The notes beneath the pieces were generated by a model. That model was not told where the DNA came from and searched no databases. It saw only the letters and a list, made by a program, of their open reading frames with translations. Position numbers and translations under genes: made by a program. From NCBI GenBank assembly GCA_910575255.1, contig CAJTEM010000001.1, forward strand, positions 1-64,000: a stretch of DNA of 64,000 nt, written 5' to 3'. This DNA comes from Lachnospiraceae bacterium (GTDB lineage: Bacteria > Bacillota > Clostridia > Lachnospirales > Lachnospiraceae). Positions 37,743 to 62,282 of the stretch are shown piece by piece. Each line of letters begins with the position of its first letter. The stretch's first letter is position 1.

Positions 37743-37785
37743 GAATGCACAGTGGCCTATGACGGACACGAAAGGAGATATGGCA

Positions 37786-38610
37786 ATGAAAACAGCATTA
37801 TCAATCGCCGGGACTGATCCAAGCGGAGGGGCCGGGATACAGGCAGATCTGAAAACCATGACCATGAACGGTGTGTTTGCGATGAGCGTTATTACGGCGC
37901 TGGTGGCGCAGAATACTACCGGCGTGCGGGAAATCGTAGAACTGACGCCGGAATTTCTCGGGCAGCAGATTGACGCGGTATTCGAGGACATCCCTCCCGA
38001 TGCAGTGAAAATCGGCATGGTGGCATCCAGCAGTCTGATAGAGAAAATGGCGGAACGCCTGCGTTTTTATCAGGCGGAGAATATTGTGGTGGATCCGGTG
38101 ATGGTAGCCACCAGCGGCGACCGGCTGATCAATCAGGAGGCAGTAGACACGCTGAAGAACCGCCTGCTTCCTCTGGCGGCCCTGGCTACGCCCAATATCC
38201 CGGAGGCAGAGATCCTGGCCAGTATGGCCATCCACACTCCGGAAGATATCGAAACTGCGGCCAAACAGATCAGCGATACCTGCGGCTGTGCCGTTTTGCT
38301 CAAGGGCGGGCACAACATCAACGACGCCAATGATTTTCTCTATGCGGACGGTACGGGGACGTGGTTCTGCAAAACACGCATTGACAATCCCAACACACAC
38401 GGCACTGGCTGTACCCTGTCCAGCGCCATCGCCTCCAACCTGGCCAAAGGCTTTGACCTCCCCACTTCCATCCAACGGTCGAAGGATTACCTCTCCGGCG
38501 CACTGGGTGCCATGCTGAATCTGGGGAAGGGACGGGGTCCTTTGCAGCACAGCTTCAATCTGACCGGAGAATTTGCCAGGGAGGCAGCTTCCGGAAGCGA
38601 CCGGGAATAG
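37786..38610 (+). CDS. thiD: Hydroxymethylpyrimidine/phosphomethylpyrimidine kinase
   Basis: 274 aa from the ATG at 37786 (AAAGGAG with 8-base spacing; the ATG at 37780 is too close). Two-step phosphorylation of HMP. Motifs: 'SIAGTDPSGGAGIQADLKTM', 'VVDPVMVATSGDRL', 'LLKGGH', 'NTHGTGCTLSSAIASNLAKG'. Together thiM, thiE and thiD salvage thiamine precursors; thiC/thiG are not in the window. A hairpin terminator follows at 38653. Confidence 0.95.
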   Translation: MKTALSIAGTDPSGGAGIQADLKTMTMNGVFAMSVITALVAQNTTGVREIVELTPEFLGQQIDAVFEDIPPDAVKIGMVASSSLIEKMAERLRFYQAENIVVDPVMVATSGDRLINQEAVDTLKNRLLPLAALATPNIPEAEILASMAIHTPEDIETAAKQISDTCGCAVLLKGGHNINDANDFLYADGTGTWFCKTRIDNPNTHGTGCTLSSAIASNLAKGFDLPTSIQRSKDYLSGALGAMLNLGKGRGPLQHSFNLTGEFAREAASGSDRE

Positions 38611-38988: not shown

Positions 38989-39903
38989 ATGGATATGATG
39001 CAAGAAATGGGACGGTATCTGGAGTTTTGCCAATATCGCAAAGAATTGAACCCCAACACATTGAAGGCATACAGGATAGACCTGAAACAATATTTATCCT
39101 ATATTCAGAATGATATATTGTTAAAATCCAAAATAGAAGAATACATAACCGAGTTACATAAAAAATATAAACAGAAGACAGTGAAAAGAAAAATTGCCAG
39201 TATTAAAGCATTTTATAAATATCTGGAAGAGGAAGAACTGTTGGAAGGAAGCAATCCGTTTGACCGGATCCGGGTGAAGTTTAAGGAAGCCGAAAGCCTT
39301 CCGCGGATTATTCCCAGAACGGACATTGAAAAGCTTTTGAATTATATGTATACAATTATTGAACATTCTGGAAAATTATCAGCGGTTTATCGGGATCTGT
39401 CCATTGTGGAAATGTTTTTTGCAACCGGCGCCAGGGTATACGAGATTTCAAATTTGAAGAGACAGGACATTGATTTAGACAATGGAATCATAAAAATATT
39501 TGGCAAAGGCAGTAAGGAACGGTATGTACAGATCGGCAATCAGGAGATCTTACAACTGATGAAAGAATATTATAAAAGAAACCGGGAAGAAATTGATGAA
39601 AGCGGGTTTTTCTTTGTAAATCGGCGGGGAAAACGTTTTTCCGAGCAGTCGATTCGCCGGATGATCCGAAAATACTCTAAGCAGGCAGGCATTTCCCTGC
39701 CGGTCACCCCTCATATGTTCCGCCATTCGGTTGCCACATATTTGTTGGAGGAAGGCGTTGACATAATGTATATACAGAAAATATTGGGACACAGTTCAAT
39801 CAAAACAACACAGATTTATTTGCATATAGCGTCTAAAAAACAGCTGGAGATTTTAAAAGAGAGGCATCCGAGAAATCAGATGCGGATTCGGAGAGCTGCG
39901 TAG
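38989..39903 (+). CDS. XerC/XerD-type tyrosine recombinase
   Basis: 304 aa. N-terminal SAM-like core-binding domain ('YLEFCQYRKELNPNTLKAY', 'KRKIASIKAFYKYLEEEEL'), then the catalytic domain: Arg in 'ATGARVYEI', Lys in 'FGKGSKERYVQIG', 'HMFRHSVATYLLEEG' (H-x-x-R), 'LGHSSIKTTQIYLH' with the nucleophilic Tyr. Start ATG follows AGAGGAGGAAG. It stands alone between a palindromic element and the phage left end; it may serve an integron- or XerH-like local role or be a stand-alone resolvase. Confidence 0.85.
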   Translation: MDMMQEMGRYLEFCQYRKELNPNTLKAYRIDLKQYLSYIQNDILLKSKIEEYITELHKKYKQKTVKRKIASIKAFYKYLEEEELLEGSNPFDRIRVKFKEAESLPRIIPRTDIEKLLNYMYTIIEHSGKLSAVYRDLSIVEMFFATGARVYEISNLKRQDIDLDNGIIKIFGKGSKERYVQIGNQEILQLMKEYYKRNREEIDESGFFFVNRRGKRFSEQSIRRMIRKYSKQAGISLPVTPHMFRHSVATYLLEEGVDIMYIQKILGHSSIKTTQIYLHIASKKQLEILKERHPRNQMRIRRAA

Positions 39904-40523: not shown

Positions 40524-41762
40524 CTATTTTAATTTTTCTATTTCTTCTTTGAGCCATTCAAACTCTCTTTTCGTGTACACCTTTTCGGTGATGTCCGAGA
40601 TTTTATGACCTACCATATATTTGATTGCATATTCGTCAATACCTGCTTTTTTGGCAGCGGTGACAAAGTGTGTACGTCCGTCATGTGGACGGTGTTCCGG
40701 ATTAAGATTCAGCTCAGTCCGGATTCGAGTGAAACCTTTCTGGTATCGGTTATAGGTGAACATTATATTTTTGCGGTTACTGTCTGGATCGGTGCAGTTG
40801 AACAGATACTTACTTCTAAGAGCTTCAGCCTCTTTATACTTCCGAAGAACTAAAGGGCGGATTCTTGAATGGATAGGAACAACTCTGTCAGTACCCGCTT
40901 CAGTTTTCATACCGCCTTTGAAAGTCCAGTTTTCAAGATCAATGTTTTCCAGTTCCAGTAAACCTAATTCCTGCGGTCTCCATCCAGAATAGCACTGGAT
41001 AAGGATGGCGTCAACATACCGTTTGTCATCTACGTGCTGCCAAAGCAATGCTATCTCTTCATCCGTAAAGGCGATATGACCTTTCTTGACACTTGTGACT
41101 TCTTTGATGACTTCATCCGACAGGTTGAAAGTTCGGGAATAATTCCGATCTACAAGTTCATATTCCAAAGCATAGTCCAGCATTTGGTTGAATAGGGATT
41201 TGATTTTGTTTTTCATGGCAGCGCTGGGATGTTGCTCTTTTCCTTTTACAATCGCTGTCCCCTCTTCCATACAACCTTTCACATGTCTGGCACGGATATC
41301 CATTACTCTCATGTCGTATACAGATGTACAATACGCCCAGGCAGCGTCTACTGCTCTTGCACTTGCATCCGACTTCAAGGTTTTAAAATAGCCCTCTGTC
41401 CATTTCTCGTATAATTCCTTTGCCGTGATGGCAGGACCAAGATCATAAGGATTCTTGTTATATTCCACCAGGGCCGCATAGGCATCGTTATAAGTTGGAA
41501 AATACGATTCCGGTTTCAAAGGTTTGCAAATGGGTCTGCCTGTTTTGGTCTTTCCGACCGTTACCATTGCCCGGAACGGATTACGAAGATTCCGTCCTTT
41601 AATCTCACTGATCTGCCCGAATCCGTTTGGTAGCCGTCTGCGCTTATTTGATTTTCGGGGTACCCGCGGCTTTGCATCCGGCTGAATTGGATAGCCACAA
41701 TGCGGGCAAATCAAAGCCTTATCGCTTATCTGCAATTCGCACTCAGGACATTTAATTAGCAT
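40524..41762 (-). CDS. int: Phage tyrosine integrase with N-terminal zinc ribbon
   Basis: 412 aa from the ATG at 41762 (minus strand AAAGGAGAGATAAG upstream; a longer frame to 41801 has no site). Residues 4-24 are a zinc ribbon ('CPECELQ', 'CPHCGYP'), then AP2/SAM-like DNA-binding parts, then the catalytic domain: Arg in 'YSGWRPQELG', Lys in 'GGMKTEAGTDR', His-x-x-Arg in 'RPHDGRTHFV', 'MVGHK', Tyr in 'KVYTKREFEW'. Transcribed away from the rest of the element. It catalyses integration and, with an excisionase, excision. Confidence 0.9.
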   Translation of the reverse strand: MLIKCPECELQISDKALICPHCGYPIQPDAKPRVPRKSNKRRRLPNGFGQISEIKGRNLRNPFRAMVTVGKTKTGRPICKPLKPESYFPTYNDAYAALVEYNKNPYDLGPAITAKELYEKWTEGYFKTLKSDASARAVDAAWAYCTSVYDMRVMDIRARHVKGCMEEGTAIVKGKEQHPSAAMKNKIKSLFNQMLDYALEYELVDRNYSRTFNLSDEVIKEVTSVKKGHIAFTDEEIALLWQHVDDKRYVDAILIQCYSGWRPQELGLLELENIDLENWTFKGGMKTEAGTDRVVPIHSRIRPLVLRKYKEAEALRSKYLFNCTDPDSNRKNIMFTYNRYQKGFTRIRTELNLNPEHRPHDGRTHFVTAAKKAGIDEYAIKYMVGHKISDITEKVYTKREFEWLKEEIEKLK

Positions 41763-41796
41763 CTTATCTCTCCTTTCTGTTGCAACATCCATAGCA

Positions 41797-41832
41797 ATCA
41801 TATATCATAGTGTAGGAATTGTCAACTCCTAC
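41797..41832 (-). promoter_or_regulatory. Integrase promoter with operator-like palindrome over the -35
   Basis: On the minus strand TTGACA (41825-41820), a 17-base spacer and TATGAT (41802-41797) form a near-consensus sigma70-type promoter for the integrase. The -35 lies inside the inverted repeat GTAGGA-N9-TCCTAC (41812-41832), a likely repressor or integrase binding site. Confidence 0.7.
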
Positions 41833-46040: not shown

Positions 46041-46072
46041 CGCGAATTTTGCAAGTTCTATTATGGAGAAAG
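46041..46072 (+). promoter_or_regulatory. Phage recurrent element, copy 8, abutting a tRNA-like gene
   Basis: CGCGAATTTTG-CAA-GTTCTA-TTATG-GAGAAAG. The G after TTAT is where the tRNA-like sequence begins. Confidence 0.55.
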
Positions 46073-46138
46073 AAACTAGCTTAAAGTAGAGCACCCGTTT
46101 ATCTCGGGAGATTCCAGTTCGAATCTGGGGCTTTCTCT
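46065..46138 (+). tRNA. Degenerate tRNA-like sequence, possible UAU (Ile) anticodon
   Basis: T arm is canonical: TCCAG-TTCGAAT-CTGGG. A 7-bp acceptor GAGAAAG/CTTTCTC closes the structure at ~73 nt. The anticodon arm CCCG-TTTATCT-CGGG would expose U-A-U. Defects: D arm without GG, extra bases around the D stem, a bulged G between T and acceptor stems, only four pairs in the anticodon stem, pyrimidine at position 37, no encoded CCA. Either a phage tRNA in decay, a tRNA mimic, or false pairing. Confidence 0.4.
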
Positions 46139-46797: not shown

Positions 46798-47730
46798 ATG
46801 AAAGGAAGCAAAAACATCAGAGGAAGTACAGAATGGGAAAAGAAGTTTATTGATAGCTTCAATCGGCTTTGTAATCGGCACCACTCATGGCAGGTGTGGC
46901 AAGACTTTGTCAATATGTCTGCCAGTGCAATTGCCAATGCAGTGGATCGGAGGCCAGATGTCTGGAAACTAAGGGAAGATTCTTATATGGCAACTGTCAA
47001 AAGATATTCCAAAGAGGAGTTGAATCTCATCACGGAACTGTTAAGCATCACAACATTGGCATTAGAAGAGAACCCGGCACAGGACTTTCTGGGGAAGATG
47101 TACATGCAGTTCAATCTTGAAAACAAATGGCACGGGCAATTCTTTACGCCTTGGCATGTTGCAGAGCTTATGGCAAAGATGCTGGTCAGCGATGAGACAA
47201 AAGAGAAGATTGCATCTCAGGATTACATTTCCGTCAATGATCCTTGCTGTGGTGCCGGCTGTATGCTTATAGCTTTCGCAAATGTCTGTAAAAACGATTT
47301 AGATATCAACTACCAGCAATCGGTGCTTTTTGTGGCGCAGGATATTGACTCGGTAGTTGCCAAGATGTGTTATATCCAAATCAGTCTTTTGGGATGCCCA
47401 GGCTTTGTGATAGTTGGCAATTCCCTTTTGGAGCCAGTTTGCGGAAGTACAATCGAGCCAATCTATATGAGGCCAGAAGACATTTGGTATACACCATTAT
47501 ATTTTACTGATGTGTGGACGCTTCGGAGAATCCGGTCTTGGAATAATAAGCTTCGGAAAGAAGAACCGGAACCGAAACCTATTCAGATACCTAAGATTGA
47601 GAAATCTCCAAGAACGGCCCCAGTAGTACATAACTCACCGCAAAAGCCGATTGCAAAGAAACCTGTAAAGAAGAAAAAACCGTTTTCGCTGAAAGACTTT
47701 TTTACAGTGAAAGGAAAGGGTAAGAAATGA
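46798..47730 (+). CDS. N6-adenine methyltransferase-like protein lacking the NPPY motif
   Basis: 310 aa. 'GQFFTPWHVAELMAKML' and SAM motif 'VNDPCCGAGCMLIAFA' match HsdM/type I-like methylases, followed by 'VLFVAQDIDSVVAKMCYIQ'. Where NPPY/NPPF is expected there is 'VGNSLLEPVCGS', so methyl transfer to adenine is doubtful. The C-terminal ~60 residues are Pro/Lys-rich linker plus 'KKPFSLKDFFTVKG'. Overlaps the next gene by ATGA. May be a SAM-binding decoy or anti-restriction factor (inference). Confidence 0.65.
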   Translation: MKGSKNIRGSTEWEKKFIDSFNRLCNRHHSWQVWQDFVNMSASAIANAVDRRPDVWKLREDSYMATVKRYSKEELNLITELLSITTLALEENPAQDFLGKMYMQFNLENKWHGQFFTPWHVAELMAKMLVSDETKEKIASQDYISVNDPCCGAGCMLIAFANVCKNDLDINYQQSVLFVAQDIDSVVAKMCYIQISLLGCPGFVIVGNSLLEPVCGSTIEPIYMRPEDIWYTPLYFTDVWTLRRIRSWNNKLRKEEPEPKPIQIPKIEKSPRTAPVVHNSPQKPIAKKPVKKKKPFSLKDFFTVKGKGKK

Positions 47731-48497
47731 ATTTAAGGCAAAAATTTTATAGGATATGCGGCAAGTCGAGGCTGTATCTGAGACGCTCATCGCCAACTAT
47801 CTTATGTTGTGTAGCAGCAGTCGGTGTTGTAGGGACAGCTGTGGCCGCCGTCAAGGCGACTCCCAAAGCTATGAAGTTGTTGGAAGATGCTGCGGACGAA
47901 AAGGGAACAGATTTAAGCAGGACGGAGATTGTCCTCACTGTCGCTCATTTGTATATCCCGGCGGCTGTTATTGGAGCTGGCACCATCTTCTGTATTTTCG
48001 GAGCAAACGCTCTTAACAAACAGCATCAGGCAAGATTGATGAGCGCTTACGCTTTGCTTAGAAACTATCACAAGGAATATCGTGATAAGTTGATCGAACT
48101 GCATGGCGAAGAAGCAGATGCCGAAATCCGAAATGCCATGATACGAGAACATTGCAATTTCCATCCGCTTGATTCAGATGTTCCAGACGATAAAGTTATA
48201 TTTTACGATGAAATATCCGGGGAATCCGTTACGCGGTATGAGCGGGAAGTGATAGATGCTGAGTATCATTTCAATCGCAATTTTACAATGAGGGGGTATG
48301 CGTTCCTTAACGAGTTCTACGAATTCCTGGGATTGCCTATGACCGAATACGGAGAAATTGCCGGGTGGTCCATGTCTTCTGGAATTATGTGGGTGGATTT
48401 TGAACATCGGCTGATTGATAATGACGATGGAGGAACAGCCTGTTATTCCATTGACATGGTATTTTCACCGGAGGTCCTGGAAGAATGGGAATGCTAA
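47727..48497 (+). CDS. DUF6353-like membrane protein 1
   Basis: 256 aa. Two hydrophobic segments ('ILCCVAAVGVVGTAVAAVKA' followed by the 'TPKA' signature; 'YIPAAVIGAGTIFCIFGANA') then a soluble domain ending 'DFEHRLIDND'. Paralogous to 49669 and 52318. Start coupled by ATGA to the methylase-like gene. Function unknown; phage-associated in Clostridia. Confidence 0.65.
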   Translation: MNLRQKFYRICGKSRLYLRRSSPTILCCVAAVGVVGTAVAAVKATPKAMKLLEDAADEKGTDLSRTEIVLTVAHLYIPAAVIGAGTIFCIFGANALNKQHQARLMSAYALLRNYHKEYRDKLIELHGEEADAEIRNAMIREHCNFHPLDSDVPDDKVIFYDEISGESVTRYEREVIDAEYHFNRNFTMRGYAFLNEFYEFLGLPMTEYGEIAGWSMSSGIMWVDFEHRLIDNDDGGTACYSIDMVFSPEVLEEWEC

Positions 48498-49621: not shown

Positions 49622-49650
49622 CTCCGCCCCTTGTGGGCGGTTTATATTTT
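49622..49650 (+). terminator. Terminator whose tail is a TTATATTT octamer
   Basis: CCGCCC-CTTGT-GGGCGG then TTTATATTTT. The DUF6273-like gene stops just before it. Confidence 0.75.
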
Positions 49651-49668
49651 GAAAGGAGAAGCGATGAA

Positions 49669-50493
49669 ATGAAGAAACCTGATTTCTCCCGGATTGCCAA
49701 AAGTGTAAAGGTGGGGTTGCATAAACATAGCCCTGAAATCCTTACAGGAATTGGCATCGCCGGGATGATTACCACCACCGTATTGGCAGTGCGGGCAACG
49801 CCCAAAGCGCTGATTCTTATCGAGGAGGAGAAGCGCCGGCAGAACAAAGAGCTGTATGAAGATGCTGAAAGGAAAAGATTAGACAGTCATCCGAGAGTCG
49901 ACCGGCTAAAGCCGATGGAGCTTGTTCGGACTACTTGGGTCTGTTATATTCCTGCTACCATCACTGGCGCACTTTCTATTGCCTGCTTGATTGGTGCCAG
50001 CTCCGTGAACATTCGGCGTAATGCAGCGCTTGCCGCAGCCTATTCCCTGTCGGAGTCCGCTTTAAAAGAGTACCAGGAGAAGGTAATTGAGACCATCGGG
50101 GAGAAGAAAGAGCAGGAAATCCGGGATGCGGTAGCAAAGGACAAGATTCAGCGTGATCCGGTCGTGAATAAAGAGGTCATCATCACAGGACGCGGGGAGA
50201 CTCTCTGCTATGATACGATTACATCCCGATATTTTAAGTGTGATATTGAAAAGCTCCGGAGGGTGGAAAACGAGCTGAATAAAAAGCTTATCAGCGAGAT
50301 GTATATTTCGCTGAACGAGTTCTATTACGAGATCGGATTGCGTTCTACCGATATTGGTGACGACCTCGGATGGAATCTGGCAGACGGTTTTATCAACCTG
50401 GAGTTCAGTTCACAGCTTGCAGAGGACGAAACGCCTTGTCTTGTGATTGGATACCGGGTAGCGCCAAGGTATGATTTTCGCACCTTGATGTAA
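49669..50493 (+). CDS. DUF6353-like membrane protein 2
   Basis: 274 aa from the ATG at 49669 (GAAAGGAG ten bases upstream). 'HSPEILTGIGIAGMITTTVL' and 'RATPKAL' are the family signature; second membrane pair 'CYIPATITGALSIACLIGAS'; soluble end 'GDDLGWNLADGFINLEF'. Paralogue of 47727 and 52318. Confidence 0.7.
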   Translation: MKKPDFSRIAKSVKVGLHKHSPEILTGIGIAGMITTTVLAVRATPKALILIEEEKRRQNKELYEDAERKRLDSHPRVDRLKPMELVRTTWVCYIPATITGALSIACLIGASSVNIRRNAALAAAYSLSESALKEYQEKVIETIGEKKEQEIRDAVAKDKIQRDPVVNKEVIITGRGETLCYDTITSRYFKCDIEKLRRVENELNKKLISEMYISLNEFYYEIGLRSTDIGDDLGWNLADGFINLEFSSQLAEDETPCLVIGYRVAPRYDFRTLM

Positions 50494-52317: not shown

Positions 52318-53238
52318 ATGAAAGCAAATGAAATTATGAGTAAAGCCAGTGGGGCTTTGAATAAGATCGGGTTCGGCTTGAAGAAGCGCAGCCCTGAGAT
52401 TCTGGTGGCGGTTGGTGTTGTGGGCACTGTTGTAAGTGCTGTAATGGCCTGCAAAGCGACCACGAAAATCAACACAATCCTGGATGAGACCAAGGAGCAG
52501 TTGGACAAGATCCATGAGTATGCGGGGAATCCCGATGTGGCGGAGAAGTACAATGCGGAAGACGCTAAGAAAGATACAGCTATCGTTTATGGCCAGGCAG
52601 GTGTAAAGCTGGCCAAGCTATATGCTCCGGCGGTGGGGCTTGGGATTTTGTCCATCAGCAGCATTCTGGCATCCAACAATATCCTCAGAAAACGCAATAT
52701 GGCAATCTCAGCAGCTTTGGCGGCAGCTACCCAGGACTTTAAAGATTACCGCAACCGTGTTATAGAGCGGTTCGGAAAAGAAGTGGATCATCAGCTCCGA
52801 TATAACATTAAGGCCGAGGAAATCGAGGAGACTGTTACGGATGAGAAAGGCAAGGAGAAAAAGGTCAAGAAGAATGTTGAAGTCGCCGATCCGAATGCCA
52901 GCGGTTATGCGAAGTATTTCACAAGGAGCAATCCTTACTGGGAGGAAGACTCTTCCTATGTCGAGATGTTCCTGCGTTCCCAGCAGAATTTCGCCAACGA
53001 TAAACTGAAAGCGAATGGACATCTCACTCTGAACGATGTCTATGACATGCTCGGATTCCACGACAGTAAGGCCGGCATGGTGGTTGGTTGGATTTACGAT
53101 CTGGACCATCCGAACGGGGATAACTATGTGGAGTTCGATGTAAAGAAAGTGAATCTCCCGAACGAGCAGGGCGGGTACGAAGAGGCTTATGCCATCGACT
53201 TCAACGTGGACGGCAATATTTATAATGAGATGATTTGA
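52318..53238 (+). CDS. DUF6353-like membrane protein 3
   Basis: 306 aa. 'RSPEILVAVGVVGTVVSAVM' and 'ACKATTKI' at the start, second helix 'LYAPAVGLGILSISSILASN', then a soluble domain with a charged insertion ('TVTDEKGKEKKVKKNVEV') and 'FHDSKAGMVVGWIYDLD'. Longest of the three paralogues. Start follows AAAAGGAGC. Confidence 0.65.
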   Translation: MKANEIMSKASGALNKIGFGLKKRSPEILVAVGVVGTVVSAVMACKATTKINTILDETKEQLDKIHEYAGNPDVAEKYNAEDAKKDTAIVYGQAGVKLAKLYAPAVGLGILSISSILASNNILRKRNMAISAALAAATQDFKDYRNRVIERFGKEVDHQLRYNIKAEEIEETVTDEKGKEKKVKKNVEVADPNASGYAKYFTRSNPYWEEDSSYVEMFLRSQQNFANDKLKANGHLTLNDVYDMLGFHDSKAGMVVGWIYDLDHPNGDNYVEFDVKKVNLPNEQGGYEEAYAIDFNVDGNIYNEMI

Positions 53239-54048: not shown

Positions 54049-54196
54049 GGCCATTATCGCTATGTTGGACTTCACCCTGGATTCCAAACGTAAGCGGCAC
54101 ATTGTCGGTGGCATTCTGCTGAGCGTGTCGTTTCTGTTTGGAGGCTTGGCGCTTACCACCATGACGTTAAAGACGGAGGAAAAACGGGATGAGTAG
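54035..54196 (+). CDS. Very small membrane protein
   Basis: 53 aa from the ATG at 54035 (AAGGAG eight bases upstream). Helix 'HIVGGILLSVSFLFGGLALT'. Overlaps the next gene by 8 bases. Confidence 0.45.
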   Translation: MENFEAIIAMLDFTLDSKRKRHIVGGILLSVSFLFGGLALTTMTLKTEEKRDE

Positions 54197-54797
54197 AGGA
54201 TTATATTTAGCAGCGTTTGCCACTGGGGCGATAGCGGGCTCTGTGGTGACGTGGTGTTTTGTAAAAAAGAAGTACGAGAGGATTGCCCAGGAAGAGATCG
54301 ACTCCGTGAAAGAGGTCTTTGCCAAGAAGGAACTCAATCCCCAGGTAAAGGAGATGACCAAAACCGGAGAAGAAGTCGTAAAAGGGCTGAATGACGGGAT
54401 TAGACAGGCAGCCGAACAGGCAAAAGAAAAGCCCGATCTTGTACAGTATGCCGCTATGGTCCAAAAATACGGAGGAACTGTTGGCGAGGAAAAGGAGGTT
54501 CCCATGAAAGAAAAATTCCCTTATGTCATACCGCCGGAGGAATTTGGTGAGTTCGATGATTATGAGAGGATCAGCCTTACCTATTACGCGAACGGTGTCC
54601 TGGCGGATGATAATAATGAAGTTGTAGATGATGTGGAGGATATTGTCGGCGATGCTCTCGATCACTTTGGCGAGTACGAAGATGATTCCGTATTTGTCAG
54701 ATGTGATGAGCGGAAATGTGACTATGAGATTCTTATGGATCAGCGGACATTTTCAGAAGTGGCCGAGAACAATCCCCATCAGGTGGAGGTACGATGA
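54189..54797 (+). CDS. Membrane-anchored phage hypothetical protein
   Basis: 202 aa. N-terminal helix 'GLYLAAFATGAIAGSVVTWC', coiled-coil-like middle, C-terminal soluble domain ('FGEFDDYERISLTYYANGVL', 'RCDERKCDYEILMDQRTFSE'). Overlaps the next gene by 4 bases. No family recognised. Confidence 0.55.
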   Translation: MSRGLYLAAFATGAIAGSVVTWCFVKKKYERIAQEEIDSVKEVFAKKELNPQVKEMTKTGEEVVKGLNDGIRQAAEQAKEKPDLVQYAAMVQKYGGTVGEEKEVPMKEKFPYVIPPEEFGEFDDYERISLTYYANGVLADDNNEVVDDVEDIVGDALDHFGEYEDDSVFVRCDERKCDYEILMDQRTFSEVAENNPHQVEVR

Positions 54798-55339
54798 GAA
54801 ACGAGCTGATTAACGAATACTTTGAATGGATGTACCAGCTCGTATGCAAAGATGCCAAAGGACTGTCCTATCGGAAGCTGCTCTGTAAACTTTTTGATAC
54901 TCCGTTTAACTACACGATTGCTATGGACGGCAACCGAGCGGAAGATGGAGTGGATTTGAGGTATCGGTTTGGCTATGAATGTGGTTTTGATAATTCTGCA
55001 GTAGCAGACTGTCTGGATGACAAAGACTGCAGTGTACTGGAGATGATGGTCGCCCTTGCCATTCGATGTGAAGAGCATATCATGGACAACCCGGATATCG
55101 GGGACAGAACCGGCAAATGGTTTCTGGACATGATTGTAAATCTTGGTTTGGAGAAGATGACGGATGACCGTTTTGACAAGCGGTATGTCGAGAGGATTCT
55201 GCATCGGTTCCTGAACCGGGAATACGGACGGAACGGCGATGGAGGCCTCTTCACAGTACATCATAGCCGGATTGACATGCGGTCTGTGGAAATATGGTAT
55301 CAGGCAATGTGGTACCTTGATGAGGTGCTTAAGAGCTGA
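54794..55339 (+). CDS. Phage hypothetical protein
   Basis: 181 aa, soluble. 'YFEWMYQLVCKDAKGLSYRK', 'CLDDKDCSVLEMMVALAIRC', 'WYQAMWYLDEVLKS'. Coupled to the previous gene by ATGA. No family recognised, but the composition is that of a well-folded enzyme-size domain. Confidence 0.5.
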   Translation: MRNELINEYFEWMYQLVCKDAKGLSYRKLLCKLFDTPFNYTIAMDGNRAEDGVDLRYRFGYECGFDNSAVADCLDDKDCSVLEMMVALAIRCEEHIMDNPDIGDRTGKWFLDMIVNLGLEKMTDDRFDKRYVERILHRFLNREYGRNGDGGLFTVHHSRIDMRSVEIWYQAMWYLDEVLKS

Positions 55340-55642: not shown

Positions 55643-58600
55643 ATGATTGACTTTCTTATGATTTCGACACGCAGCACAAAGCGTGGAATAATAGAAATCT
55701 ATCCGAAGTTTATTGTCAGGACAAGCTCCGATTTAATGATCCGGGGCGGGGACTTCTATGCTATCTGGATTGAGGAACGTGGTTTATGGTCGACAGATGA
55801 GCAGGATGCGTTACAACTGATTGACCGTGAACTGGATAGATATGCGGAGAAAAACCGCCAAAGTTTTGACTCCAATATTAAAGTTCTCCATATGTGGGAC
55901 GCCGAATCAGGCATGATTGATCGGTGGCACAAATATTGCCAGAAGCAGATGCGGGACTCTTTCCATATGTTGGACGAGAAACTTATTTTTTCCAACACGC
56001 CTACCGACAAGAAAGACTACGCCAGCAAAAAGCTGAATTATCCGCTTGAAGCTGGCGATTTGTCTGCCTATGACAAGCTGATGTCGGTATTATATTCCGA
56101 GGAAGAGAGACACAAGATTGAATGGGCCATTGGGTCGGTCGTATCCGGGGAATCCAAAAAGCTTCAAAAGTTTATGGTTTTGTATGGAGCTGCCGGAACC
56201 GGAAAATCGACGGTTCTTAACATCATACAGCAGCTCTTTGAAGGATACTATTCGGTCTTTGATGCAAAAAGTCTTGGCTCTTCAAACAACTCTTTTGCTT
56301 TGGAAGCATTTAAGAGCAATCCGCTGGTCGCTATCCAGCATGATGGAGACCTGTCAAAGATTGAGGATAACACGAGGTTGAACAGTCTGGTCTCCCACGA
56401 ACTTATGACAGTGAACGAAAAGTTCAAATCGACCTATTCCAACCGCTTCAAATGTTTCCTTTTCATGGGAACAAATAAGCCGGTAAAGATTACGGATGCA
56501 AAATCTGGCCTGATACGAAGGCTGATCGACGTGTCGCCAACCGGCGAAAAATTAGACCCGAAGGACTACAAAGCGATTGTGAAGCAGATTGATTTTGAGC
56601 TAGGCGCAATCGCGTGCCATTGCCAGGAAGTGTATTTGGCAAGTCCCGGAGAGTATGACGATTATATTCCGATTACGATGCTGGGTGCATCGAACGACTT
56701 CTATAATTTTATCATCGACTCCTATCATGTATTCAAGAAAGAAGACGGCACAACTTTGAAAGCTGCCTGGGAAATGTATAAGACTTACTGTGACGAGGCA
56801 AAAGTCGGCTTTCCGTTTTCACAGAGGGTTTTCAAGGAAGAGCTTAAAAACTACTTTCATGAGTACAAGGAGCGCTTCAATTTTGATGATGGGACAAGGG
56901 TGCGCAGTTATTATGTTGGTTTCCGGACTGAAAAATTTGACGAAAGGAAGGAAAATAAAAAAGAACAGGAAATGAAAACGTTACTGCAGTTTGATTGCAC
57001 GGAATCTATATTTGACCGTGAGTGTTCCGGCTGCCCTGCGCAGTACGCTTCATCCCAGGAGACACCATCTAAAAAATGGGATGCGGTAAAAACACAGCTG
57101 GCCGCCTTGGATACGTCAAAACTGCATTATGTGAAAGTACCTGAAAATCACATAGTCATTGACTTTGACATTACGGACGAGACCGGGAACAAGAGTTTTG
57201 AAAGGAATGTTGAAGAGGCAAGTAAGTGGCCGCCTACCTATGCCGAACTGAGTAAAAGCGGTGCTGGAATTCATTTGCATTATATTTATGCTGGAGACCC
57301 AGCAAAGCTCAGTAGGATTTATGACGACCATATCGAAGTGAAAGTGTTCACTGGCAATAGCTCTCTTCGGAGAAAGCTATCGAAATGTAGCAGTCTGCCG
57401 ATTGCCACGATTAGCTCCGGGCTGCCACTGAAAGGAGAAAAAATGGTAAATTTTGACGCTATAAAGAGCGAGAAAGGACTTAGGACTCTGATTATGCGGA
57501 ATCTCAATAAGGAGATTCATCCGGGGACTAAGCCGAGTATCGATTTCATCTATAAAATTTTGGAGGACGCCTATGCAAGCGACTTGAAGTATGATGTCAC
57601 GGACATGCGTAATGGTGTTCTCGCTTTTGCCGCCAACAGCACAAACCAGGCGGATTACTGTATCAAGCTCGTGAACAAGATGCAGTTCAAGTCGGAGGAG
57701 GCTTCTTCTGGGATGAGAAATGAAGATGCAAAACTGGTTTTCTACGATGTGGAGGTATTTCCGAATCTCTTCCTTGTAAACTGGAAGATTGAGGGCGAGG
57801 GAAAACCGGTAGTCCGTATGATTAACCCTGCTCCTGCAGAGATTGAGGAACTGATGAAATTCCGTCTGGTGGGGTTCAACTGTCGGCGGTACGACAATCA
57901 TATTCTCTACGCAAGGCTTATGGGATATGACAATAAGCAGCTTTATAATTTGTCACAGAAAATTGTAGGGGCAAAGAAAGGAGCTAACCGGGACTGCTTC
58001 TTTGGAGAGGCATACAATGTATCTTATACAGATGTGTATGACTTTGCTTCTGCTGGAAATAAAAAGAGCCTTAAAAAACTGGAAATTGAGATGGGAAACA
58101 TCTCTGATAAAGAGCTGGAAAAGAAAGGCTTCTCAGATGCGGAAATTCGCATTATAAAAGCGGGAACGCATCATCAGGAATTAGGACTTCCTTGGGATGA
58201 GCCGGTTCCTGAAGAACTTTGGACTAAGGTCGCTGAGTATTGTGATAACGATGTTATTGCAACGGAAGCAGCCTTTGTTTATTTGAAAGCGGACTGGACG
58301 GCCAGACAGATTCTGGCTGACTTGGCGGGTATGACAGTCAATGATACGACGAATACCCTCACAACTAAGATTATATTTGGTAATGAGCGGAAGCCGCAAG
58401 ACCAGTTCCACTATCGGAATCTCGCAGAACCCGTGTATGACCTTGATACTGAAACCTATAATTTCCTAGCAGAAGCTTGTCCGGAGATGATGGAGCAAAC
58501 ACATGGTGAGGCTGGAAGTCTTTTGCCGTATTTTCCGGGCTACACTTTCGAGAACGGAAAATCTGTATATCGCGGAGAGGAAGTTGGAGAAGGTGGGTAT

Positions 58601-59863
58601 GTATATTCTGAACCTGGTATGCACGGAAACGATGCATTGCTGGATATTACTTCCATGCATCCGCACAGCGCAATCGCAGAGGTTCTGTTCGGTGTGAAGT
58701 TCACAACGGCGTTCCGTGATATCGTAGAGGGTCGTGTCAGCATCAAGCATGAGGCTTGGGATATTGTTAATAAGATGCTGGATGGTAAGCTTACGCCTTA
58801 TATTCAGAAAGTAATTAACGGCGAAATGACATGTAAACAGCTTGCTGATGCATTGAAGACGGCAATCAACTCTGTTTATGGCTTGACCTCTGCGTCCTTC
58901 GAGAATGCATTCCGTGATCCGAGAAACATTGATAACATCGTGGCGAAGCGTGGCGCTCTGTTCATGGTAGATTTGAAGAATGAGGTACAGAAACGTGGAT
59001 ATACGGTTGCGCATATTAAGACCGATTCCATTAAGATTCCGGATGCAACGCCTGAGATTATCCAGTTTGTTATGGATTTCGGTAAGAAGTACGGCTACAC
59101 ATTTGAACATGAAGCTACATACGACCGAATGTGTCTGGTAAACGATGCTGTTTATATTGCCAGATACAAAGACGGAAATGGTCTCGGAAAATGGACAGCA
59201 ACAGGGACTCAGTTTCAGGTTCCGTATGTCTTCAAAACCTTGTTTAGTAAGGAAGATATTCTTTTTGAGGATATGGCGGAAACGAAAGAAGTTAAGACGG
59301 CAATATATTTGGATATGAACGAAGGATTGCCGGATGTATCTGAATTTGAAAAACAGTTCTCAAAAGCGGAAAGTGATTATAAAAAAGGGCTGTTATCAGA
59401 TACAACTTTCGAGAAAATATGTGCGGAGCTTCAGCCAGAAATTGACAAGGGGCATAACTATCGTTTCATCGGAAAAGTTGGACGTTTCTGTCCCGTTAAA
59501 CCCGGTAGTGGGGGTGGTGTGCTTCTCAGAGAGCAGAACGGCAAGTATTATGCTGTAACAGGTTCGTCTGGATATCGCTGGCTTGAATCTGAAATGGTTC
59601 GTGAACTGAATAAGGAAAGTGACATTGACCGGTCTTATTACGACAAGCTTGTGGATGAAGCTGTCAAAACGATCTCAGCGTATGGGGATTTCGAGTGGTT
59701 TGTATCGGATGACCCCTATGTGAAAGAAGATTCTCATACATGGGTCGCTCCTTGCGGAGATGCCAAAATCGAAACGTGCTTTGATTGTCCGTATTTTGAC
59801 AATGATCCGATTCATCTGGAGTGCAAACGCGGATATGTGATTGAAGAGATTCCATTCAAATAA
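55643..59863 (+). CDS. Fused SF3 helicase - AEP-like primase - family B DNA polymerase
   Basis: 1406 aa in one frame. Part 1 (1-~443): SF3/D5-type helicase, Walker A 'GAAGTGKST' at 182-190, sensor-like '[13 protein letters not shown]'. Part 2 (~444-600): primase-like, 'VIDFDITD' (DFD 507-509) and 'SGAGIHLHY' (539-547), as in archaeo-eukaryotic primases. Part 3 (601-1406): PolB with exonuclease 'DVEVF' (D702, E704), '[11 protein letters not shown]', 'YCDNDV' (866-871), and polymerase motifs 'DITSMHPHS' (D1001), 'KTAINSVYG' (K1072), 'KTDS' (D1128; the first Asp of DTD is Lys). The C-terminus has a Cys cluster. A complete replisome core in one chain. An internal start may also produce the polymerase alone. 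Confidence 0.85.
57431..57445 (+). promoter_or_regulatory. Internal Shine-Dalgarno and in-frame ATG at the polymerase boundary
   Basis: AAAGGAGAAAAA-ATG lies inside the fusion gene; the ATG (57443) is codon 601, in frame, exactly where the polymerase half begins. The signal is as good as that of most genes in the element. It would yield an 806-aa PolB. Confidence 0.65.
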
Positions 59864-59885: not shown

Positions 59886-60356
59886 ATGTCAAGAAGAATA
59901 CCACCTATCAACATTGAGAACGCGAGGATTATTTTCAGGAATTTTTCCGGCAAGGAGACAAAGTACAACCGGAAAGGTGATCGGAACTTCTGTGTCATCA
60001 TCGAAGATCCCGACATGGCTCAGCAACTGGCAGCGGATGGATGGAATGTGCGTATCCTGCCGCCCCGTGATGAGGACGAGGAAGCAAGAAATTATATTCA
60101 GGTTGCCGTGAGCTATAAGGTCATTCCGCCGAAAGTTATCATGGTGACAAGACGGGCGCAGACCCCGCTGGACGAAGAGTCCGTCGATTCCCTGGATTAT
60201 GCAGAAATCCGGAATGTGGATCTGACAATCAATCCGTCCGAGTGGGAAGTCAATGGAAAGACCGGCATCAAGGCTTACCTGAAGACAATGTATGTCACTA
60301 TTGAGGAGGACGAGTGGGCAGCGAAGTATGCGGAGCTGGAGGGCCCGCAGGAATAG
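59886..60356 (+). CDS. Candidate phage single-stranded DNA-binding protein
   Basis: 156 aa from the ATG at 59886 (AAAGGAGAAAGAAA upstream). '[18 protein letters not shown]', '[20 protein letters not shown]', then beta strands and an acidic end 'AELEGPQE'. Acidic C-terminus, beta-rich core and position after the polymerase fit an SSB, as in T7 gp2.5-like proteins. The call rests on context and layout. Confidence 0.55.
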
Positions 60357-60417: not shown

Positions 60418-60576
60418 ATGGTCAAAAACACCAAGTTCGTAAATTTTGAGAAGTATTGCAAAACCTGCGAGTATGAAAAGAAGAAAGATACCGATAGCCC
60501 ATGTAACGAATGTCTTGATACCTGTGCCAGAGAAGGAACTGATGAGCCGGAAATGTGGAGGAAAAAAGAGAGATGA
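60418..60576 (+). CDS. Small cysteine-rich phage protein
   Basis: 52 aa from the ATG at 60418 (AAAGGAG upstream). Four Cys ('YCKTCEYEKKK', 'CNECLDTC') form a likely zinc knuckle. Ends coupled by ATGA to RNase H. Confidence 0.6.
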   Translation: MVKNTKFVNFEKYCKTCEYEKKKDTDSPCNECLDTCAREGTDEPEMWRKKER

Positions 60577-61028
60577 AAAAAACCCCGGTTAAAATTCCGA
60601 AGAGATCTTATGCTTTCGTGGACGGTTCTTTCAATCCCACAACAAAAATTTATGGTTGCGGAGGATTCCTGATTGACCAGTTTGGAAAGAGGTATGTTAT
60701 ACAGGCAAGCGGCGACAATGAAGAATGGGCGGTTATGAGAAATGTAGCCGGCGAAATCCTTGGGGCGAAAAAAGTAATGGAATTGGCAAGGAAACTCCAG
60801 ATGAAGAAGTTGATTATATTCTACGACTACGAAGGAGTTGCCAACTGGCCTTTGGGAATATGGAAAGCGAAGAAACCTGTTACCAAGGACTATGTTCAGT
60901 TTGCCTGTTCCATTATCGCTTGCGGCGTAAAGTTATATTTTCGCCATGTAAAGGGGCATTCTGGTATTTCCGGTAACGAGGAGGCTGACCGGCTGGCAAA
61001 AGAGGCTGTCGGATTATTGAAGAAATGA
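60573..61028 (+). CDS. Ribonuclease H (type I)
   Basis: 151 aa from the ATG at 60573. Catalytic residues visible: Asp in 'AFVDGSFNP', Glu in 'NVAGEILGA', Asp in 'IIFYDYEGV', 'HVKGHSG', Asp in 'NEEADRLAKEA'. Removes RNA primers during phage replication. Start coupled to the preceding zinc-knuckle gene. Confidence 0.85.
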   Translation: MKKTPVKIPKRSYAFVDGSFNPTTKIYGCGGFLIDQFGKRYVIQASGDNEEWAVMRNVAGEILGAKKVMELARKLQMKKLIIFYDYEGVANWPLGIWKAKKPVTKDYVQFACSIIACGVKLYFRHVKGHSGISGNEEADRLAKEAVGLLKK

Positions 61029-61043
61029 TACAGGAGGAACTTT

Positions 61044-62282
61044 ATGGCTGGAATACAGTTGCGTGACTACCAGTTAGATGCGGTACGTCGGATGAAAAAC
61101 GGCTGCATCCTGTGTGGCGGAGTTGGTAGCGGTAAGTCTCGCACTGCTCTCGCCTACTATTATTTATGCGAAGATGGGGAGATTGGTACGGACGAGTATG
61201 TCCCGATGGGCGATCCACCAAAAGACCTTTATATTATTACCACCGCCCGGAAAAGGGACACCTGCGAGTGGGAGGGGGAACTTTCACCGTTCTTGCTATC
61301 GCCCAATCACGAAGTTAATCTCTACTCCAACAAAGTGGTTATTGACTCATGGAACAATATCCAGAAGTATGCCGAAGTGCAGAATGCTTTCTTTATATTT
61401 GACGAGCAGCGGGTTGTCGGAACCGGAGCCTGGGTTAAAGCTTTCTTGCGAATAGCAAAAGCAAACCGATGGATTCTGCTGTCGGCCACTCCTGGGGATA
61501 CATGGCAGGATTATATTCCGGTGTTCATCGCCAACGGTTTCTATAAGAATAAAAGCGAGTTCACAAGGGAGCATATTGTTTACAGTCATTTTACCAAGTT
61601 TCCCAAAGTTGACCGGTACCTAAATACCGGACGGCTGATACGGCTTCGGAATTCCATTCTGATCAATATGGACTTCAAACGGGAAACTGTCTCCCATCAT
61701 GAGGATGTGTTCGTACCTTATAGTATTGAGAGGTATAAGGATATTTGTCGTACACGGTGGAATCCCTGGGAGAATAAGCCGATTGAGAATGCTACGGAAT
61801 TATGCTATGCCTTACGGAAAGTAGTCAATTCAGATGAATCAAGGCAGGTTGCTTTGCTACGGATTTTAGAGAAGCATCCGAGGGCCATTATATTTTATAA
61901 CTTCGATTACGAGTTGGAAATCTTGAGAGAGATGTTTTTAGGCAGATGCAATTCTAAACTGGACGGATTTGAGATGGCAGAGTGGAATGGTCATACTCAT
62001 CAACCGATTCCGGAATCCGAGAGCTGGGTGTATCTTGTCCAGTACAATGCTGGAGCTGAGGGATGGAACTGTATCAAGACAGACACCATTATATTTTACT
62101 CGCAGAGCTATTCCTACAAGGTTATGGTGCAGTCCAGTGGGAGGATTGACAGGATGAACACTCCCTATACAGATTTATATTATTATCATCTGAAAAGCCG
62201 TTCGGGAATCGATTTGGCAATTAGTAAAGCGCTGAAAGACAAGAAAAAGTTTAATGAAACTGGTTGGGCAAAATGGAGGTAA
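61044..62282 (+). CDS. SNF2-family helicase/ATPase
   Basis: 412 aa. SF2 motifs: Q-like 'LRDYQLDAVRRMKNG', Walker A 'CGGVGSGKSRTA', Walker B 'FFIFDEQRV', 'LLSATPGDTWQDY', then domain 2 with 'AEGWNCIKTDTIIFYSQSYSY' and motif VI 'VQSSGRIDRMNTPYTDL'. Walker B is DEQR rather than DEAH. Acts with the polymerase module, probably remodelling replication forks or recombination intermediates. Start follows CAGGAGGAAC. Confidence 0.85.
   Translation: MAGIQLRDYQLDAVRRMKNGCILCGGVGSGKSRTALAYYYLCEDGEIGTDEYVPMGDPPKDLYIITTARKRDTCEWEGELSPFLLSPNHEVNLYSNKVVIDSWNNIQKYAEVQNAFFIFDEQRVVGTGAWVKAFLRIAKANRWILLSATPGDTWQDYIPVFIANGFYKNKSEFTREHIVYSHFTKFPKVDRYLNTGRLIRLRNSILINMDFKRETVSHHEDVFVPYSIERYKDICRTRWNPWENKPIENATELCYALRKVVNSDESRQVALLRILEKHPRAIIFYNFDYELEILREMFLGRCNSKLDGFEMAEWNGHTHQPIPESESWVYLVQYNAGAEGWNCIKTDTIIFYSQSYSYKVMVQSSGRIDRMNTPYTDLYYYHLKSRSGIDLAISKALKDKKKFNETGWAKWR

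Follow-up and report, generated by a model that had tools for sequence, protein, structure and literature searches.

Can a single phage gene supply a helicase, a primase and a DNA polymerase in one polypeptide, or does such a frame reflect the merging of separate genes? The question is raised by a 64,000-nucleotide stretch of a Lachnospiraceae bacterium genome (hereafter the window; positions 1 to 64,000 of contig CAJTEM010000001.1, assembly GCA_910575255.1), where a sequence-only reading had pointed to SF3 helicase, primase-like and family-B polymerase (PolB) motifs within the gene at 55643..59863. We conclude, with a probability of roughly 0.9, that this gene encodes the replicase of a tailed-phage prophage, HelPrimPolB by architecture, and most likely a one-polypeptide replication machine. 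The domain order helicase-primase-polymerase is real and widely conserved. If one polypeptide can unwind, prime and copy DNA, it would make a handy minimal replisome for in vitro tests, and conserved neighbouring genes without an assigned function offer concrete candidates for its partners.

One frame with three enzyme signatures

The gene is one unbroken forward-strand frame from an ATG at 55643 to a stop at 59863, and it is the sole match to its own sequence in the window's genome. Its parts are as follows.

55643..59863, + strand: HelPrimPolB replicase gene, 1406 amino acids (aa) (frame, phrog_4210 and phage-record matches)
55643..56971, + strand: N-terminal region and SF3 helicase, residues 1-443 (DUF5906, primase C-terminal helicase match, invariant residues)
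56996..57439, + strand: predicted AEP/PrimPol primase domain, residues 452-599 (AlphaFold model, Foldseek and VIA matches, invariant D507/D509/H544/E565)
57446..57709, + strand: helical bundle between primase and exonuclease, residues 602-689 (secondary structure of the model)
57743..58252, + strand: 3'-5' exonuclease domain, residues 701-870 (ExoI-III complete; limits drawn from motifs)
58595..59722, + strand: family-B polymerase region, residues 985-1360 (phrog_1252, DNA polymerase II match, motifs; outer limits approximate)

Motifs, profiles and, for the primase, a modelled fold bear out all three domain identities proposed from the sequence, at the residues first given for them. Motif names are those we take to be customary, in part for the polymerase and exonuclease and throughout for SF3 (Walker A, Walker B, motif C Asn, conserved Arg). 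The helicase carries Walker A at residues 182-190, a Walker B-like D234, motif C N278 and SGLIRRL at 288-294. Primase motif I is D507/D509 (DFD, 507-509), motif II is SxSGxGxH with H544 (SGAGIHLHY, 539-547), and motif III is E565. The exonuclease has ExoI D702/E704, ExoII N746/D751 and ExoIII Y866/D870; the polymerase has motif A D1001, motif B K1072/N1076/Y1079/G1080 and, as motif C, KTDS at 1126-1129 (59018-59029). In this last motif (K1126-T-D1128-S) a Lys stands where the first Asp is usual, and the two-Asp motif C of most family-B members is absent.

Profile searches distribute over the protein in the same order. Pfam DUF5906 matches residues 180-293 (52.2 bits, cut-off 27.6), phrog_1156 (primase C-terminal helicase) residues 114-441 and phrog_1252 ('DNA polymerase') residues 683-1345, while phrog_4210, also 'DNA polymerase', spans residues 2-1365, nearly the full length, with 2055 bits. 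A profile of the primase and polymerase parts aligned the polymerase motif region with PDB 3k57, which we take to be Escherichia coli DNA polymerase II (E 3.3e-5). The NCBIfam profile TIGR01613 (phage/plasmid primase, P4 family, C-terminal) scored 49.5 bits (E 2.7e-13), below its cut-off of 108.7.

Residue conservation was counted over 89 aligned proteins, comprising the window protein itself, 79 IMG/VR relatives, among them near-duplicates and some truncated at contig ends, and nine from annotated phage records. A frame-broken IMG/VR locus (L043) and the gene that is split in Bifidobacterium phage BitterVaud1 were excluded beforehand. Invariant in 89 of 89 are helicase residues K188, D234, N278, R292 and R293; primase residues D507, D509, S537, H544, H546, E565 and K567; exonuclease residues D702, E704, N746, D751, Y866 and D870; and polymerase residues D1001, K1072, N1076, Y1079, G1080, K1126, T1127, D1128 and S1129.

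Cysteines cluster at residues 452, 461 and 464 and again at 1371, 1379, 1382 and 1394, and these groups could bind metal; within the first, C464 alone is listed as nearly invariant.

Primase domain and domain order

An AEP fold is present in the AlphaFold model, and Foldseek and VIA match it to the NrS-1 and pRN1 primase-polymerases, with 10-14% identity to solved AEPs among the best structural matches. The sequence-only reading had proposed a structural check for a primase fold in residues 444-600; the model and the structure matches together reject the possibility that none is there. PDB searches made on sequence only returned no primase; without structure, this domain would have escaped notice. 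The Pfam Prim-Pol profile PF09250 likewise stayed below its cut-off for the window protein (13.9 against 22.8 bits), and the primase claim therefore rests on fold and motifs rather than on that profile. All three AEP motifs set out in the motif account of PMC4538821 (hhhDhD/E, sxH and hD/E) are present. We predict on this footing that the middle domain is an AEP/PrimPol primase. The helical bundle that follows it gave scattered helical matches only, none of them specific.

Residues 143-441 align with positions 471-767 of phrog_1829 and residues 471-545 with its positions 43-123 (E 4.8e-4), and 66 of 73 members match phrog_1829 at E up to 0.1. The helicase and primase parts thus match this family in reverse order, which means that the window protein has the customary primase-first arrangement turned round, as had been supposed from the motifs. 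When the primase part alone served as query, 253 of the 268 matching phage records covered at least 80% of it; at that search sensitivity, the primase part is therefore hardly seen outside this context.

Intact relatives and alternative explanations

More often, primase-helicases and polymerases are encoded separately, and the fusion might accordingly be an assembly or sequencing artefact that merges the two; a split relative in BitterVaud1 and the frame-broken L043 locus point the same way. Counts of intact relatives refute it. A tblastn search matched 254 of 50,697 phage records (E up to 1e-5), and in 252 of these a single place covers no less than 80% of the protein (places join pieces, so that the split BitterVaud1 gene is within the 252). 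An IMG/VR scan returned 236 relatives, and among the best 80 of these, 79 loci hold one long matching open reading frame (ORF), some cut by contig ends. A second genome of the genus has two replicase copies, 88-89% identical to the window protein and each a single open frame. Hosts of the matching phage records include Arthrobacter (95), Gordonia (55), Streptomyces (54), Lactococcus (13), Curtobacterium (7), Rhodococcus (4) and Microbacterium (4), among others, and conservation spans phages of Firmicutes and Actinobacteria. A merging artefact thus has next to no chance of being correct, and the suggestion that this is a genuine single gene held.

Two further alternatives accept the protein as it stands and question what it does. 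The middle domain might have an AEP fold and serve in DNA binding or gap filling, with primers coming from the host or another protein. Its very divergent sequence would fit such a role, and some AEPs, according to a portion of PMC4538821, serve damage tolerance rather than replicative priming; all three AEP motifs are nevertheless present, with D507, D509, H544 and E565 invariant, and we consider a domain that makes no primers improbable. The polymerase, for its part, might not be the main replicase but a specialised, weakly active or translesion enzyme, given a motif C that lacks its first Asp in all 89 proteins. In the text consulted from Kazlauskas et al. 2020 (PMC7544198), the archaeal B2 group, whose motif C likewise has a single Asp, figures as translesion polymerases. 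The same text reports, however, that primer-independent PolBs also lack the first Asp and polymerise efficiently. The ExoI-III residues are moreover fully conserved, and genes for a single-stranded DNA (ssDNA)-binding protein and a helicase lie close by. A translesion role is, in our judgement, very unlikely.

Partial and altered forms of the gene were also seen. In BitterVaud1 (L084 3001-7631) a break just ahead of polymerase motif A leaves replicase genes of 959 and 368 aa on either side of a 213-aa ORF, and Streptomyces phages SendItCS (L083 3977-4474) and Scarif (L086 1983-2426) carry a small extra ORF resembling part of the helicase domain beside a full replicase. Replicase matches occurred in 20 of 299 host-family genomes, of which seven were long, 12 covered the helicase region alone and one (G277) residues 1-52 alone. 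Plasmids gave no replicase match at E up to 1e-5.

Proposed mode of action

The activities proposed for the replicase are those of the families to which its domains belong. The SF3 domain would assemble as a ring on DNA and unwind it, and the AEP domain would lay primers on the exposed strand. Each primer might then be handed over to the C-terminal family-B polymerase and extended with 3'-5' proofreading, probably with assistance from the ssDNA-binding protein whose gene lies immediately downstream. In this manner the enzyme could copy the whole phage genome.

Prophage setting and neighbouring genes

The surrounding genes are those of a phage, as the sequence-only reading had it. The contig that holds them measures 273,241 bases.

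37759-38610: phosphomethylpyrimidine kinase gene, before the integrases
38989-39903, + strand: second integrase-family gene, between the kinase gene and the prophage integrase, chromosomal or phage
40524..41801, - strand: tyrosine integrase, near the probable left prophage end (PF00589, 7.2e-14)
46070-46137: tRNA-Ile, anticodon TAT, inside the probable prophage
46798-47730: N6 DNA methylase-type gene, adjoining the DUF6353 genes
47727..48497, + strand: first of three DUF6353 paralogues (PF19880, 7e-62)
49633..50493, + strand: second DUF6353 paralogue, two transmembrane (TM)-like segments (PF19880, 3e-87; simple hydropathy)
52318..53238, + strand: third DUF6353 paralogue, two TM-like segments (PF19880, 4e-75; simple hydropathy)
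54189..54797, + strand: phrog_4695 protein, one N-terminal TM-like segment (phrog_4695 match; hydropathy)
54794..55339, + strand: phrog_4678 soluble helical protein, upstream of the replicase (2.7e-64)
59889..60356, + strand: phage ssDNA-binding/annealing protein (PF24083, phrog_4787)
60555..61028, + strand: RNase H, uncommon in this module (PF00075, 3.6e-10)
61044..62282, + strand: DNA helicase, SF2-like (phrog_62, 2.3e-64; Helicase_C, 2.9e-06)
77538-79280 of the contig: large terminase
80598-82451 of the contig: prohead-protease-type protein

An amidase/glucosaminidase gene follows the terminase and prohead-protease-type genes. The succession of integrase and then replication, terminase and protease genes indicates a prophage that starts near 39-40 kb.

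By simple hydropathy, 159 of 278 DUF6353 homologues have two TM-like segments, 81 have one, 37 none and one three; among 155 phrog_4695 homologues, 115 have one and 40 none. A literature search found the family name DUF6353 in no paper of the collection covered. The phrog_4678 model is all-helical (pLDDT 95.1, pTM 0.92), had no PDB match at E up to 0.001, and gave three viral matches without a stated function.

Conservation of the neighbourhood

The genes next to the replicase recur with it. Within flanks of up to 3 kb at the 80 IMG/VR loci, phrog_4695 and phrog_4678 were each found at 77, the ssDNA-binding protein at 75, DUF6353 (queried with the third paralogue) at 74 and the SF2-like helicase at 59. 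DUF6353, phrog_4695 and phrog_4678 each occur in all 51 of the 78 genome loci whose flanks reach 6.5 kb or more upstream and 4 kb or more downstream, where the ssDNA-binding protein and the helicase are each present in 49 and RNase H in four. Annotated phage loci (flanks 2 to 8 kb) hold DUF6353 in 10/10, phrog_4678 in 9/10, phrog_4695 and the ssDNA-binding protein in 7/10 each and the SF2-like helicase in 1/10. RNase H homologues were found at 0/80 IMG/VR loci, 0/10 annotated phage loci and 6/78 genome loci. The gap between phrog_4678 and the beginning of the replicase match has a median of 233 bases and reaches 839 at most (159 cases).

Reverse searches recovered the replicase at 17 of 20 DUF6353 loci and 19 of 23 phrog_4678 loci; at the seven misses the contig ends 1 to about 1,520 bases past the query gene. 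Several contigs recur among these two sets and the IMG/VR replicase set. DUF6353 exceeded its cut-off in 8 of the 299 host-family genomes, and phrog_4678 was matched in the same eight. One of the genomes, G232, has both families and no replicase match, its phrog_4678 lying 277 bases from the contig end, and another, G041, has the replicase without either upstream family on a 6.6-kb contig that leaves 347 bases upstream. The prophage in G277 (L227) carries DUF6353, phrog_4695 and phrog_4678 with residues 1-52 only of the replicase and other genes downstream.

In the phage collection, record tallies, compared as totals and by host genus rather than record by record, came to 254 (replicase), 250 (ssDNA-binding protein), 246 (DUF6353) and 231 (phrog_4678, with none from Lactococcus), and the host genera hardly differed. 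Conservation of phrog_4695 is weak, with 44 records in a tblastn search. TerL, present in 1628 records, occurs too widely for use as a control. A capsid-protease, unrelated to replication, was found in 244 records, with Arthrobacter 95, Gordonia 55, Streptomyces 54, Lactococcus 13, Curtobacterium 7, Rhodococcus 4 and Microbacterium 4, as for the replicase. Because this tally is nearly equal, co-occurrence is not specific to a partnership, and we reject it as specific evidence of functional coupling; it is most simply, and sufficiently, explained by one shared phage lineage. What still speaks, weakly, for a partnership is the conserved position beside the replicase. One could picture a membrane-anchored, self-priming replisome in which DUF6353 and phrog_4695 tether the enzyme to the membrane and phrog_4678 acts as loader or origin adaptor. 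This picture draws on gene order and conservation, co-occurrence lending it no support since a lineage marker behaves alike, and we regard it as unlikely.

Comparison with known systems

DNA polymerase II (3k57) has DTDS at motif C where the window protein has KTDS, and to our knowledge it has no helicase or primase. The AEP-SF3 primase-helicases (phrog_1829, phrog_1156 and the pRN1 ORF904 type) share the same two domain types and motifs; they have the primase first, to judge from phrog positions and, for ORF904, from part of PMC4538821, whereas the window protein has the helicase first and an added polymerase. Within phrog_4210, the 'helicase/polymerase' of Faecalibacterium phage FP_oengus is 58% identical over most of the protein and the 'DNA primase/polymerase' genes of actinophages about 42-51%. 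The C-terminal tail (about 1366-1406) falls outside the phrog_4210 match and is common to close IMG/VR relatives.

The closest parallel is a group already named. Kazlauskas et al. 2020, in the portion of PMC7544198 that concerns it, name HelPrimPolB after its helicase-primase-PolB domain organisation, cite their own 2016 paper for its first description, and treat it as a divergent branch of the EpsilonN-like clade that differs in motif C and KxY and is prevalent in metagenomic datasets. A full-text literature search for the name and its variants found that paper alone, and literature searches found no biochemical study of a HelPrimPolB-type protein. The window protein has the same three domains in the order given by the group's name, and its KTDS agrees with a divergent motif C, compared here by description. 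Residues 1186-1195 are a candidate KxY region. No difference from the group was found in a comparison made by description, without published motif logos, members or sequences. From its motifs and modelled fold, we class the protein as a predicted HelPrimPolB by architecture (SF3 and PrimPol N-terminal to PolB), placed in the group by the published description. The idea that this order had not been described as a family does not stand, given that paper and the existing GenBank names: the helicase-first fusion with a polymerase is already described and named, and this protein is a further example of it, in a Lachnospiraceae prophage.
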